The notes beneath the pieces were generated by a model, which searched no databases, was not told where the DNA came from, and was given only the letters and a program-made list of their open reading frames with translations. Both the position numbers and the translations under genes were made by a program. A DNA stretch of 64,000 nucleotides. Source: Streptococcus tangpeifui. Its GTDB lineage: Bacteria; Bacillota; Bacilli; Lactobacillales; Streptococcaceae. The stretch covers positions 248,001 to 312,000 of the forward strand of contig NZ_JAAKDU010000001.1 of the NCBI RefSeq assembly GCF_011038795.1. The letters are read 5' to 3'. Shown piece by piece: positions 32,825 to 37,648 of the stretch. Each line of letters begins with the position of its first letter. The stretch's first letter is position 1.

Positions 32825-34330
32825 TTATTTTTGCCGGCTAAGTTTATCGTTGGTTAGTTGATAAGTCGTCTGGGTTACTTGCTCAATAAAAGTGCGGTCA
32901 TGCGAGATGCTGATGATAGCACTGGGATAGTCTGCAAGAAGTCGTCTGATTTCTGGTTGGGAAGTAGGAGAGAAGTGTCGGGTCGGTTCATCAAGGAGCA
33001 GGACGTTATTGCGTTCAAAGACCATTTTTGCCAAGAAAAGCTTGGCTTTTTGTCCGCCTGATAACTCACTGATAGGATGGAGAATTTCCTTGCGATTGAA
33101 TTTGAGACTGGCTAGTAGTGTGCGTGCTTCCTCTTCACGGCCGGTTTGACTGAGGAAGTTTAGGGCTGTCTGGTTTTGGTCAATTGTTTCTGTGTATTCT
33201 TGGGGGAGATAGCCAACAGAAATGCCGGTCTTAGCTGCCAAATCCTGATAGATTTTTCGGATGAGCATGGTCTTGCCAATTCCATTGCGACCGATGAGGG
33301 CAATTTTCTCTTGGCCTTTGATGGTTAGGTCAATGACTTGGCCTGTGATTAGCTTTTCTGCGTGATAGGATAGAAGTACTTTCTGAGTTGGCAAAGGTTC
33401 AATATCTGCAAAGAAGAGAGCAATTGTATCGGGGTTGTCAGGTAATTCAGTGAAGTTTTCTGCTTCTCGGTTAAAACGTTTTTCCCGTGATAGCAGGTTT
33501 TTCATTTTTTTAGAAAGCAGGCGTCCTTGAACGTCATTCTTTGTGACTGTTAGGTCGTGTCGTACTGCAGATTTGGCACGATTGAGTTTTTCTAAGCGTT
33601 CTTGTTGCTTCTCGCGCTCTTTCCGTGCTGTTTTTTCCTGCCTTATCCGTGCTTTCTGACGGTTGTTTTTGTAAGTCTTGTAATCAATAGCAGAGCTGGT
33701 CGATTGAGCTTGACTTCCCTTTTTGATTTGCTCCAAGTGAATGATATGGGTCGCAACCTTGCTGAGCAATTGTTCATCATGGGAGATAAAAAGAATCGTC
33801 AAGGGGCTTTGGGCGATAAAATGTTCCAACCAAGTAAAGGTTTCTATATCTAAATCGCTAGACGGTTCATCGAGCAAAAGCAGGTCGGGTTGATGGGCTA
33901 GAATTTTTAAGAGCTGGAGTTTGATTTTTTCACCACCTGAAAGTTGTCCGACCGTCTGTTTGTCGTCCTCAAAACGCTGACGGTCAAAGTGCAGGGTTGC
34001 CGCGAATTGATAAAGCAGGTGGAAGTCGAATAAGTCATAGTTTATGTCTTTGTAGAGGTAGTCCCTAATAGATAATTGATTGTCTTCCTGAGGTAAGGTT
34101 TGAGGCAAGTAGCCCATGGCACAGAAGTGATTGACGATCTGTCCTGATACGTTGGCATAATTTGCAATGAGCTCAGGCGAATAGATGTATTGGAGCAGAG
34201 TTGATTTGCCAGTGCCTTCTTCCCCGATAATTGCCACCTTGTCACCGGCATTGATGGTCATCGTTAATTTTTCAATCAGAGTATGCCAATCTTTCTCTTG
34301 GATAATGGTTAAATTTTGTATTTGTAGCAT
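32825..34330 (-). CDS. ABC-F family ATPase behind an attenuator
   Basis: Second ABC-F protein, 501 residues, resembling antibiotic-resistance or translation-quality ABC-F factors. Domain 1: variant Walker A GEEGTGKST, signature LSGGEKIKLQLLK, Walker B LLLLDEPSSDLD. A basic linker (about 215-290) then domain 2: GRNGIGKTM, LSGGQKAKLFLAKM, and LLLDEPTRHFSPTS where DEPTNHLD is expected. The linker would reach toward the ribosome peptidyl-transferase centre. The upstream leader (34331-34590) has a minimal ORF, nested hairpins and a terminator, as known for drug-inducible ABC-F genes. The drug class, if any, is unknown. Confidence 0.85.
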   Translation of the reverse strand: MLQIQNLTIIQEKDWHTLIEKLTMTINAGDKVAIIGEEGTGKSTLLQYIYSPELIANYANVSGQIVNHFCAMGYLPQTLPQEDNQLSIRDYLYKDINYDLFDFHLLYQFAATLHFDRQRFEDDKQTVGQLSGGEKIKLQLLKILAHQPDLLLLDEPSSDLDIETFTWLEHFIAQSPLTILFISHDEQLLSKVATHIIHLEQIKKGSQAQSTSSAIDYKTYKNNRQKARIRQEKTARKEREKQQERLEKLNRAKSAVRHDLTVTKNDVQGRLLSKKMKNLLSREKRFNREAENFTELPDNPDTIALFFADIEPLPTQKVLLSYHAEKLITGQVIDLTIKGQEKIALIGRNGIGKTMLIRKIYQDLAAKTGISVGYLPQEYTETIDQNQTALNFLSQTGREEEARTLLASLKFNRKEILHPISELSGGQKAKLFLAKMVFERNNVLLLDEPTRHFSPTSQPEIRRLLADYPSAIISISHDRTFIEQVTQTTYQLTNDKLSRQK

Positions 34331-34351
34331 AAAAACCTCCGTACAGGGATT

Positions 34352-34388
34352 AAAAAAACAAGTCCTACCTTATCCAGTAGAACTTGTT
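34352..34388 (-). terminator. Attenuator terminator before the ABC-F gene
   Basis: Minus strand AACAAGTTCTAC (34388-34377) pairs with GTAGGACTTGTT (34368-34357) with one mismatch or G-T, followed by TTTTTAA. It ends about 20 nt before the start codon, upstream of GGAGG, so it would cut off the message before the gene. Confidence 0.85.
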
Positions 34389-34431
34389 TGGTTGCACAAA
34401 AAGGCCAGAAACTAGTCAAGTATCGGAATCA

Positions 34432-34574
34432 GTGCACACAAAAAATTTTCTTCTGGTTTAAGGATACTATCACTTTGGTGATTTCAATTCTAAACGAAAG
34501 GTCATCAAGCAATGACCGTAAAGAATTGAAATCAAATGAGAAGAAAATTAATTGTTCAATGCACCTTTACCTCC
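34432..34574 (-). promoter_or_regulatory. Leader with minimal ORF and nested hairpins
   Basis: GGAGG (34574-34570) is followed by possible tiny ORFs (GTG CAT TGA, or TTG AAC AAT TAA). Three nested stems follow: AATTTTCTTCT (34549-34539) with AGAAGAAAATT (34454-34444); GATTTCAATTCT (34533-34522) with AGAATTGAAATC (34491-34480); and GGTCAT (34517-34512) with ATGACC (34505-34500). GTGCA of the leader ORF can also pair with TGCAC at 34436-34432. The layout fits ribosome-stalling attenuation. Confidence 0.7.
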
Positions 34575-34588
34575 ATTTATTCGTTTTT

Positions 34589-34616
34589 ATTATAACATAA
34601 AGTTTTGGTAGGACAA
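34589..34616 (-). promoter_or_regulatory. Promoter of the attenuated ABC-F gene
   Basis: Minus strand TTGTCC (34616-34611), 16 nt, TGT-extended TATAAT (34594-34589). It predicts a leader of about 250 nt. Confidence 0.75.
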
Positions 34617-34650
34617 GGAGTAGAAAAAGATTATTAATTGTGGAAATACG

Positions 34651-34681
34651 AAAAACACCTTGACATCGTCAGGGTGTTTTT
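34651..34681 (-). terminator. Intrinsic terminator after glnQ
   Basis: AAAAACACC (34651-34659) and GGTGTTTTT (34673-34681) with TGA/TCA pairing inside; on the minus strand it follows the ATPase gene by 32 nt. Confidence 0.85.
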
Positions 34682-34712
34682 CGGCTCTATAATATCTGTA
34701 ATTCCTTTGTTT

Positions 34713-35453
34713 CTAGGCATTCAACACCTTGTCTAAAAATTCTTTAAGACGGGGATGCTGAGGATTATCAAAGATTTGCTCTGGGGAACCGTCTTCGAGG
34801 AACTGACCGCCATCGGTAAAGATAACTCGGTTGGCTACCTTGCGGGCAAAGCCCATTTCGTGGGTAACAATCAGCATGGTCATACCTTGTTCGGCTAGGT
34901 CTCGCATAACGTTGAGAACATCGCCGACCATTTCTGGATCCAAGGCTGAGGTTGGTTCGTCAAAAAGCATGATATCAGGGTTCATAGCGAGGCTACGTGC
35001 GATCGCCACCCGTTGTTTTTGTCCTCCTGAGAGGCTTTCGGGGCTGACATCACGCTTGTCGGAGAGACCTACCTTTGCCAACAGATCCATTCCAACTTTT
35101 TCAGCCTCTTCTTTGGAATACTTGCCTAATTCAATTGGAGCGAAGGTGATATTGTCTAAAACTGACATGTGGGGGAAGAGGTTAAAGTGTTGGAAAACCA
35201 TTCCGATATTTTCCCGAACCTTATCGACATTGGTCTTCGGATCGGACAGTTCATAACCATCAACAAAAACTCGACCGCTGGTAATGCTTTCCAAGAGGTT
35301 GAGTGTCCTCAGGAAGGTTGATTTTCCCGAACCAGAAGGACCGATGATACAAACGACATCGCCCTCATTAAATTGGGCATTGATGCCCTTCAAGACTTCA
35401 TTGTCCCCATAAGATTTATGAAGGTCTTGCACATCAATTTTCAAGTCTGCCAT
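34713..35453 (-). CDS. glnQ: Polar amino acid (glutamine-type) ABC transporter ATPase
   Basis: ATP-binding subunit of a PAAT-family importer, 246 residues. Walker [11 protein letters not shown]-loop [16 protein letters not shown], signature [16 protein letters not shown], Walker [15 protein letters not shown] and H-loop [11 protein letters not shown] are all intact. Its ATG overlaps the stop of the permease gene, so ATPase and permease are translated together. GlnQ is named from similarity to GlnPQ of lactic acid bacteria; exact substrate not provable. Confidence 0.9.
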
Positions 35454-37648
35454 TATTTCAGCTTCCTTTCTAATCGTTTTGCCAAGCGGGTCAAGAGAGT
35501 AATGATGACCAGATAGATGATCGCGAGAATCGCGTACATTCGGAAGGACTGGTAGTTGCGGGCAATGATAATCTTACCAGTTTGGAAGAGTTCAACCAGA
35601 CCGATTGCTGAGACGATAGTTGTATCTTTCAGCGAGATAACGAATTGGTTAATGAAATTTGGTAACATCACACGGACAGCTTGTGGTAGGATAACCTTAC
35701 GCATGGTTGTGCGGTAAGAAATACCTAAGCTTCGGCTGGCTTCCATTTGTCCTTTCGGCACGGCCTCGATACCGCCGCGAACGATTTCTGCGATATAGGC
35801 CGCAGCATTGAGGGAAAGGGCGATGGTAGCGGCCACGAAATCGTTGATAGGTGATTGATGGCCAGTGATGGATTCAATCAGGTTTGGAATCCCCCAGTAG
35901 ATGAAAGCTGCTACAATCATCAGCGGGATACCGCGCACCACATCGACGAAGATGCGAGAGATAGTCTGCAGGGTCTTGTTAGGAGCGACAGCCATCATAC
36001 CGAAGATAATGCCGATAACCATGGCAATAGCGAAGGAGAGGAGGGTCAGGGTAACTGTGATTCCAAGACCTTGCAAGAGTTGCTTGTAATTGTTTTGGAT
36101 GAGGCCGATAATGGTAGTTTCATCAGCGGTTTTCTTCTTACTTTCTTTGTCGCTGGCCAGATATTTATTGACAATCTTATCGTATTTGCCTGATTTAACG
36201 AGAGAAGCTAGGCCGTTGTTGAACATTTGAATGAGTTCAGGATTAGCCCCCTTCTTAACCGCGAAGCCAATGTCACCAGACTTTTCGCCCTTGATTGGGG
36301 TCTTGAATTTGCGGCCTTGCTTGATAGCATATTTGAGGACAGCTTCATCGTCCATCATAGCATCAACGGATCCATTTTGCAGGCTATCATAAAGAGTTGA
36401 GCCATCATCGTAGGCACGCACACTATAACCATACTGATTTGCATGCTGGGTCAACCAGTCGTAAGAAGCTGTTCCCTTCTTGGCACCGACAGTCTTTCCT
36501 TTGAGGTCAGCATATTTTTTTACGTTTGAATTGGCTGGAACCGCGATGATCGTATTAGCGGAGTAGTAAGCATCTGAGAAATCAAAGGTGTTCTTACGTT
36601 CATCTGTAATGGTCATGCCGGCGATAACGGCATCAGCCTGACTGGATTGAACGGCATTAAGGGCAGCGTCAAAACCAGGGAACTGCAATTTGACTTTAAA
36701 ACCTTGTTGCTTAGCAATGGCTTTGATTAATTCAACATCAATACCGGTATAGCCACCAGAACCATTTTGGTATTCGAATGGAGCAAATGAAGAGTCCAAA
36801 ACAATAGTATAGCTCTCCTTGACTGGTGTTGCTTTCTTGCTGGCGTCACCCGTTAAATGCAGACTAGCTGACGGTGTTTTAGAGTTTTCATTGACGGAAT
36901 CTCCCAGCCATTTTTTCATGATCTTATCATAGGTTCCGTCTTTCTTCATAGCTGCCAGAGCTTTGTTGAAGTCCTTGATGAGGTACTCTTTTTTACTGCC
37001 TTTTTTGACGCCAAAGGCAAAGCTACCAACAGATTCACCATCCATATTCATATCGTACGGCTTACCTTGCTGGATAGCGTATTGAACCACAGGCTTATCA
37101 TCCATAGCCGCATCAACAGCCCCTTGATCCAAGCTGTTATTCATCAGGTCGCTAGTATCGAAAGTTTTAACCGTATAGCCATATTGATCAGCATGTCGGT
37201 CCAACCAGTCTTGGGCAGCGGTACCATTTTTAACCCCAACAGTTTTGCCTTTTAATTGGTCGTAGCTGGTAATGCTAGTTGTTCCTGACTTGGTGTAAAC
37301 AACGATTGAAGTATCATAGTAGGTGTCAGAAAATTTGAAGACCTTTTTGCGGGCCTCGGTCACGGTTGTCCCAGCCATAAGGCCGTCAGCCTGACCAGAT
37401 TGAACGGCATTGACAGCAGCATCAAAGCCGGGATAGGTTTGTTTATAGTCCCAACCTGAACGTTTGGCGACTTCCTTAATGATGTCAACATCAATCCCTT
37501 TATAGGTTTGATCACTATCCTTAAATTCAAAGGGAGCGTAAGCTGTATCGGAAACGATGGAAATCTTTTCAGCAGCCTGAGCCCTTCCTGTAAAAATAAG
37601 AAGAGCGGACAAGACACTTAACATAAGCGCCAGAAGTTTTTTCTTCAT
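35453..37648 (-). CDS. glnP: Fused substrate-binding (two domains) and permease protein, GlnP type
   Basis: A 731-residue PAAT transporter subunit. Residues 1-25 are a signal segment ([21 protein letters not shown]). Two tandem periplasmic-binding-protein-3 domains follow (about 30-250 and 280-500), each with the DVD/DVE-type ligand contact region and AVQSGQAD or AVQSSQAD and MMDDEAV segments. The C-terminal part (about 510-731) is the permease with several membrane spans and the EAA loop [20 protein letters not shown]. The layout equals lactococcal GlnP, which imports glutamine, glutamate or asparagine. Promoter TTGCCT-17-TAAAAT lies upstream. Confidence 0.92.

Follow-up and report, generated by a model that had tools for sequence, protein, structure and literature searches.

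A candidate ribosome-mediated attenuator with a three-codon leader ORF upstream of an ABC-F gene widespread in the genus Streptococcus

INTRODUCTION

In Bacillus subtilis, the leader of vmlR carries a Met-Ile-Asn upstream open reading frame (uORF) within an anti-antiterminator stem-loop, SL-1, together with an antiterminator, a terminator, and a hairpin partially covering the gene Shine-Dalgarno (SD) sequence, while relatives of vmlR carry uORFs encoding MDN, MDK, and MRK, according to the available text of that report (PMC9226507). Further short uORFs given in the accessible parts of the literature encode MR[I/M] for cplR, MK[L/Q] for VmlR2, and MAGN for LsaA (PMC10201436), and MLV for a Streptomyces ARE5 gene (PMC12421871). 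The msrD gene belongs to the mefA/msrD operon for macrolide resistance, and its six-residue leader, MYLIFM, is described in the text available as stalling at its own stop codon with erythromycin (PMC10314930).

The present study concerns the region upstream of an ABC-F gene of Streptococcus tangpeifui. An earlier note, made from the sequence alone, did not recognize its tiny ORF and the ABC-F protein as a described pair. A literature search likewise found no such pair and no paper describing the leader of this streptococcal ABC-F gene, with the supplements of two streptococcal transcriptome catalogues lying outside that search. As far as the available text of each source extends, the uORF4u paper names no streptococcal ABC-F (PMC10219788), and two ncRNA-discovery papers present other streptococcal motifs and not the ABC-F leader (PMC11109978, PMC8632094). 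The two catalogues, again from the text available, may contain the ABC-F leader: one reports 11 non-Rfam attenuators for S. agalactiae (PMC4448216), and the other counts 162 early 3' ends in S. pneumoniae (PMC6296669).

RESULTS

Anatomy of the leader

The window (the whole 64,000-nucleotide stretch of DNA that was analyzed) contains the leader at positions 34331 to 34616 on the minus strand, with the features collected in Table 1. A promoter, a GGAGG sequence, a tiny ORF, and a terminator just before the gene SD had been claimed in the earlier note, and all were present on that strand. The promoter, TTGTCC and TATAAT separated by 16 nucleotides, spans 34616 to 34589; by pattern count, the window held three promoters on both strands against 1.9 expected, which is not above chance. 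Terminator-like sites numbered 2 against 0.3 expected, and the terminator lies directly before the gene SD. The folding energy of the leader was −77.8 kcal/mol compared with −51.3 (standard deviation, 4.8) for shuffled sequences, corresponding to a z of −5.5, with 0 of 200 shuffles as good.

The nested stems proposed in the earlier note were recovered in the predicted fold as an 11-bp SL-1 stem (34539-34549 with 34444-34454), which begins within the stop codon with AATTTTCTTCT paired to AGAAGAAAATT, a 13-bp inner stem, and a further inner hairpin at 34500-34517. The proposed pairing of the leader-ORF start with TGCAC near 34432 was also found, the partner being 34431-34439. Long apical extensions of SL-1 were likewise seen in the two closest relatives. 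Two functionally important pairings had been absent from the earlier note, namely, the predicted antiterminator formed by strands 2 and 3 and the predicted sequestration of the gene SD. No Rfam family matched the window at the gathering score, and at E ≤5 the region 34250-34700 gave six weak subthreshold matches (best E, 0.15), none near the gathering score. The leader DNA had no match among plasmids. Outside the leader lies a GlnQ-like ATPase gene (34713-35453), scoring under the GlnQ cut-off, and next to it, at 35453-37648, a gene whose fused product combines a permease with two substrate-binding domains.

Table 1. Features of the leader and of the ABC-F gene in the window, in order of transcription
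Feature	Position	Strand	Basis
Promoter −35, TTGTCC	34611..34616	−	Promoter pattern
Extended −10, TGTTATAAT (TATAAT preceded by TG)	34589..34597	−	Promoter pattern
Leader-ORF SD, GGAGG	34570..34574	−	Sequence
Alternative overlapping ORF, GTG CAT TGA (Met-His-stop)	34556..34564	−	Seen in 6/110 regions
Leader ORF, TTG AAC AAT TAA (Met-Asn-Asn-stop), conserved frame	34548..34559	−	Homologous position and spacing in relatives
SL-1, long hairpin around the uORF; predicted anti-antiterminator	34431..34565	−	MFE; SL-1 fold in 37 representatives
SL-1 apical extension, inner hairpins	34480..34533	−	Predicted fold
Strand 2, SL-1 3' arm and predicted antiterminator 5' strand	34444..34463	−	Duplex and permutation tests
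Strand CCTTTTTGTGCA, predicted partner of the gene SD region (SD sequestration)	34393..34404	−	Fold, duplex tests
Intrinsic terminator: 14-bp stem (34389-34356), 6-nt loop, U run	34352..34389	−	Terminator scan
Strand 3, terminator 5' arm and loop TTCTACTGGATAA, predicted antiterminator partner	34370..34382	−	Terminator scan, register test
Gene SD region, TGTACGGAGG, predicted to pair with 34393-34404	34336..34345	−	Duplex tests
ABC-F gene (putatively regulated), 501 aa, two ABC domains	32825..34330	−	ORF; family and PDB relatives

Conservation in the genus

The string GGAGGTA-N(3-8)-ATGAACAACTAA occurred exactly once in each of 65 of the 147 genomes of the genus, and the reversed control gave 0. 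Sixty-three of these strings lay 175 to 402 nt upstream of the ABC-F gene on the same strand, while the other two were on other contigs, near the contig start. A related pattern was found in 10/147 genomes, 9 times at the ABC-F leader (coordinates read by eye) and once elsewhere, with 1 match in the reversed control. The one elsewhere, in genome G103 (contig C33, 1594-1620), is an extra SD with Met-Lys-Asn-stop away from the ABC-F gene and may be a chance occurrence. The window's own genome held no other copies of the pattern with an SD spacing of 3 to 9; the spacing in the window is 10, so the leader itself was not counted.

Representatives were defined as leaders sharing under half their 10-mers, which left 37. 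A promoter scoring at least 9 was present upstream of the uORF in 31 of these 37 nonredundant relatives against 6.0 expected, and in 35 of them the −10 element, at any score, ended 29 to 34 nt before the uORF start. The earlier note had held that its proposal would fail if the leader were not conserved; conservation was found through the genus, with a short ORF in 108/110 upstream regions.

Extra elements were seen with some leaders. In three (L179, L181, and L180, from genomes G130, G023, and G013), a small ORF of 48 to 49 codons ending Gly-Asn-Arg lies between the leader and the ABC-F gene. Pfam gave no credible match for it (best E, 0.033, under the cut-off), and with the G023 protein as query it was retrieved from G023 and G013 only among the 147 genomes. 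In three others (L069, L071, and L078), about 90 to 100 extra bases resembling an inserted repeat lie between SL-1 and the terminator, and the antiterminator strands are retained on both sides of the extra segment.

Leader ORF and its tripeptide

Upstream regions were examined for 110 of the 130 genomes with an ABC-F match. A fixed rule that required an SD within 17 nt and an ORF no longer than 8 codons, in 420 nt of upstream sequence, detected a short ORF in 105/110 regions, and the count of 108 was reached when longer sequence was included for G130, G013, and G041, where the uORF lies farther upstream. The other two of the five misses were G059, whose contig ends too early, and G011, with what reads as a 14-codon ORF instead. 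In 104 leaders the uORF was within 350 nt; 91 of these encoded tripeptides, 84 of them Met-x-Asn-stop (54 MNN and 24 MKN). ORFs of 5 to 7 residues replaced the tripeptide in 5/37 representatives. Among shuffled leaders, 11% contained an SD with an ORF of 8 codons or fewer, and 0.4 to 0.5% contained M-x-[N/K/H]-stop.

The earlier note had left two frames open for the tiny ORF, a His-stop and an Asn-Asn-stop. Since the short ORF of relatives is usually Met-x-Asn-stop, either MNN or MKN, the homologous frame in the window is TTG-AAC-AAT-TAA, and the second proposal is the one supported by homologous place and spacing. The GTG-CAT-TGA frame was rejected as the sensor, as it was found in only 6/110 regions. 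On the protein tree, four of the six carriers belong to the window's clade of five members and the other two to the sister group of that clade. Pairing of GTGCA with 34431-34439, at the base of SL-1, may explain the conservation of that frame. The leader ORF of the window starts with TTG, which counts against the attenuation model, and TTG or GTG starts are used in some species.

Residue counts were based on the 38 leaders that encode a tripeptide and whose ABC-F protein is on the tree, leaving out the ORFs of 5 to 7 residues. The third residue was Asn in 32/38, Lys in 3, His in 2, and Ile in 1, with 5 changes on the tree, whereas the second was variable, with 15 changes, and could also be K, I, D, Y, or R. 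The Asn codons varied synonymously between AAC and AAT (3 C/T changes), and the stop was UAA in 38/38. It looks from these patterns as though the last sense codon and the stop are themselves constrained, and not through base pairing alone, although pairing also constrains this region.

Terminator and antiterminator

A terminator was found between the uORF and the gene in 104/104 leaders with a uORF within 350 nt. In two (L052 and L057), the wrong hairpin had been taken as the terminator, and these were dropped, leaving 102. In L014 the uORF sits behind an inserted ORF at more than 350 nt, for which reason the terminator and folding sets do not include this leader.

Compared with shuffled whole spacers, the antiterminator duplex was not exceptional (median z, −1.28; 24% below −2). 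In a test run after this one, strand 2 was picked from the folding of SL-1 alone, ignoring the terminator, and its duplex with the terminator arm had a mean energy of −10.53 kcal/mol across the 37 representatives against −7.67 (standard deviation, 0.37) when species were permuted, and 0 of 5,000 permutations gave a mean as low as the native one. In a gapless 13-bp register, a mean of 10.83/13 pairs was observed in 36 representatives (L031 was lost at this step) against 9.73 (standard deviation, 0.12) permuted, again with 0/5,000. At one register column, two-sided replacements exchanged T-A for A-T, C-G, or G-C. Counted on the protein tree, in-register changes occurred together 23.3 times, in opposition 1.3 times, and without a partner change 33.4 times, while registers slid by one or two positions gave 6.8 to 10.8 together against 1.6 to 5.0 opposite. 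The slide test carries more weight, because the 13-mer register used in the pair-count and tree tests was selected for maximal native pairing. In the window, 10/13 pairs form in this register; the helix is interrupted by one A-A mismatch and at two other places.

Predicted folding with a ribosome on the leader ORF

To represent a stalled ribosome, the SD through position +15 was masked in the nascent leader. Predicted pairing between the terminator arm and upstream sequence rose from 0.38 to 0.68 across the 37 representatives, with 26 rising by more than 0.2 and 1 falling by more than 0.2; a control mask placed 30 nt upstream gave 0.31, with 3 rising. Among all 102 leaders, the mask raised it from 0.37 to 0.79 (89 rose and 1 fell). 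For RNA ending at the terminator, the mean terminator probability of the 37 fell from 0.96 to 0.58. By comparison of sequences and by this predicted shift, it is supported that SL-1, antiterminator, and terminator are mutually exclusive.

In the window the shift was weak, from 0.41 to 0.60 for terminator-arm pairing, and the terminator still won at equilibrium with the ribosome stalled (0.96 to 0.93). Among the 37, predicted pairing went down with the ribosome stalled by about 0.1 in G097, G129, and G077 and by 0.26 in G051. When stalled transcripts extended past the gene SD and the antiterminator was not enforced, the probability of its register was above 0.5 in only 5/34 representatives and 0.00 in the window. 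Equilibrium folds of finished transcripts mostly favor the terminator, and the model therefore needs kinetic, cotranscriptional folding.

A second layer at the gene SD

The duplex between the anti-SD strand and the gene SD averaged −12.81 against −11.16 (standard deviation, 0.39) for permuted species, with 0/5,000 as low; against shuffled strands the effect was mild (mean z, −1.01; 13/37 below −1.5). When the antiterminator was enforced, predicted SD openness increased from 0.17 to 0.42, with 25 increases and 4 decreases among the 34 representatives remaining after two more were lost, and in the window it increased from 0.06 to 0.36. The SD is predicted to open with the antiterminator because the anti-SD strand then lies inside the antiterminator loop. 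The predicted sequestration of the gene SD in the repressed state was convincing in several clades and weak, absent, or reversed in others. A middle terminator preceding the SD-pairing strand and replacing the SD pairing was considered and dropped, although one was seen by eye in some species and may act there.

The ABC-F protein

Profile searches and PDB alignments supported the ABC-F type by domain content, with two ABC domains and a long linker. By hand count on the alignments, the linker is about 112 residues in the window protein, about 111 in the 6ha8 chain (labelled ExpZ, which we take to be VmlR), about 100 in PoxtA, and about 89 in YheS. To our knowledge, one fold is common to all ABC-F proteins. 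The window protein fell below every curated resistance-family cut-off of the NCBIfam library; its best score was 292.6 bits against a cut-off of 380 for NF000355, the generic ABC-F ribosomal-protection model, and the specific families Vga (217/725), Sal (214/725), and Msr (206/680 bits) were all under their cut-offs.

Acquired genes were represented by listed plasmid and phage records; separately from these, Lsa(F) and SrpA/Vga(H) are described from S. suis and its relatives. Among the best 40 of 2,723 plasmid and best 20 of 115 phage records, the top-ranked were 26.7 to 29.8% identical to the window ABC-F, and with this query the best place was below 60% in every record. The window protein is thus not close to the acquired resistance ABC-Fs listed. 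A protein scan of the genome contigs gave 4 distant relatives at 25 to 29% identity.

Within the genus, an ABC-F match at E ≤1e-60 was present in 130/147 genomes, including that of the window, and in 126 of the 141 good genomes. These comprised 123 full-length matches at 42 to 100% identity, six partial matches, and one with eight stops. Outside the genus, a family search of 117 genomes at E ≤1e-45 gave matches in 6 genomes only, partial and 34 to 37% identical, within longer ABC-F frames; on this basis, the orthologue looks restricted to the genus within the sample. In G124 (C1), G037 (C1), G087 (C40), and G081 (C8), the ABC-F match was shortened, split, or stop containing, and the leader string was intact in G124 and G081 despite the damaged match.

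DISCUSSION

Proposed mechanism and alternatives

Conservation, covariation, and folding under a ribosome mask strongly support the ribosome-mediated attenuation proposed in the earlier note, and it is likely that the leader acts as a transcription attenuator of this kind with a second, translational layer. By default, the three-codon ORF would be translated with quick release, SL-1 would form over it, the terminator would form, and RNA polymerase would halt before the ABC-F gene; in transcripts that escaped, the gene SD would be held by the strand preceding the terminator. On induction, a ribosome would stop on the start codon of M-N-N-stop or within its first codons. As it would cover the SD to about +15, the base and 5' arm of SL-1 would be blocked, and the freed 3' arm would pair with the emerging 5' arm and loop of the terminator, which then could not form. 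The gene SD would be released too, with the anti-SD strand lying in the antiterminator loop. The antiterminator would prevail by forming first during transcription. By analogy with known systems, it is probably an antibiotic stalling ribosomes that switches the gene on. The stall would come from peptidyl-transferase-center drugs known for start-codon arrest (lincosamides, pleuromutilins, and streptogramin A), and the ABC-F protein would relieve inhibition by peptidyl-transferase-center drugs. The same analogy makes it plausible that this protein is a resistance factor giving drug protection.

The same uORF attenuator might instead respond to initiation that is slow in general, or to scarcity of initiator or asparaginyl tRNA, as under nutrient or stringent stress, with the ABC-F protein acting as a housekeeping translation factor. 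We consider this unlikely, while recognizing that the gene is core-like (126/141 good genomes of the genus), that the tripeptide is rich in Asn, and that the protein reached no curated resistance cut-off (292.6/380 bits). Amino-acid-sensing leaders carry codon runs, and the leader ORF differs from them in that its second residue may also be K, I, D, Y, or R and its third K, H, or I. A streptococcal uORF motif before fthC has been proposed as an initiator-tRNA sensor in the available text of PMC11109978, which favors tRNA sensing, whereas the tripeptide and layout here match those of drug-sensing vmlR as far as the text of PMC9226507 extends.

The tiny ORF would be incidental if the leader were an RNA-only switch, such as a thermometer or a ligand- or protein-binding element (for example, one for ABC-F autoregulation). 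Strong helices and the predicted SD sequestration would suit such a switch, and Rfam holds no family for the leader, hence a ligand remains conceivable. However, the short ORF and its SD are kept in 108/110 regions while the surrounding helices change sequence, and Asn at the third position (32/38) with UAA in 38/38 contrasts with the 0.5% of shuffles that reach M-x-[N/K/H]-stop; an RNA-only switch is therefore very improbable. Least probable of all is a plain terminator or constitutive leader with chance hairpins between promoter and gene. A promoter and hairpins can arise by chance, and the promoter count of the window was not above that of shuffles, but conservation across the genus and covariation across mutually exclusive strands already disfavor this explanation.

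If the attenuator with its translational layer works as its anatomy suggests, most species of the genus would have a chromosomal, drug-inducible ABC-F ribosome factor, and an ABC-F protein below the resistance-family cut-offs of the NCBIfam library could explain low-level inducible tolerance. The leader would also provide a simple reporter for drug-stalled ribosomes in the genus, as well as about 100 natural variants of a single three-codon sensor with which to ask what a ribosome reads when the drug is bound. With a constraint greater on the third residue than on the second, and with residues common to vmlR, that question is directly testable. A bolder reading, offered as doubtful speculation, is that the genus has a nearly universal intrinsic, inducible defense against start-codon-arresting drugs through an unrecognized ABC-F subfamily. 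The M-x-Asn/Lys-UAA shared with vmlR would then be no accident; the drug-bound ribosome would read the third codon and stop, and a shared context rule governing arrest by lincosamides, pleuromutilins, or streptogramin A would have evolved twice.

Comparison with known systems

The comparisons below follow the available text of the reports concerned. The leader resembles a streptococcal motif, the fthC motif (uORFC-39-1), in having a short uORF, hairpins, and a terminator, but that motif precedes 5-formyltetrahydrofolate cyclo-ligase, with a metabolic signal proposed (PMC11109978). With streptococcal msrD it shares an ABC-F gene placed behind a leader peptide and an intrinsic terminator; it differs in that the gene is genus-wide and the ORF has three codons and encodes another peptide (PMC10314930). 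In Clostridioides difficile cplR, similarly, a 5' hairpin sequesters a three-codon uORF, and a terminator and SD control follow, whereas the cplR terminator stem itself covers the gene SD and both the peptide and the ABC-F protein differ (PMC10201436).

The B. subtilis vmlR leader shares the tripeptide uORF in SL-1, an antiterminator using part of SL-1, the intrinsic terminator, and a layer at the gene SD, and the uORF variants MIN, MDN, and MDK also occur among the leaders of the genus. The two differ in the ABC-F protein, in the TTG and GTG starts of some species of the genus, and in the gene SD, which is predicted to be held by a strand upstream of the terminator where vmlR has a separate hairpin after it. 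For vmlR, NusG-dependent pausing and induction are described, while the genus leader is known here from sequence and folding. On that evidence, the leader is predicted to work like the vmlR and cplR attenuators and belongs with the uORF-controlled, ribosome-mediated attenuators of ABC-F genes.
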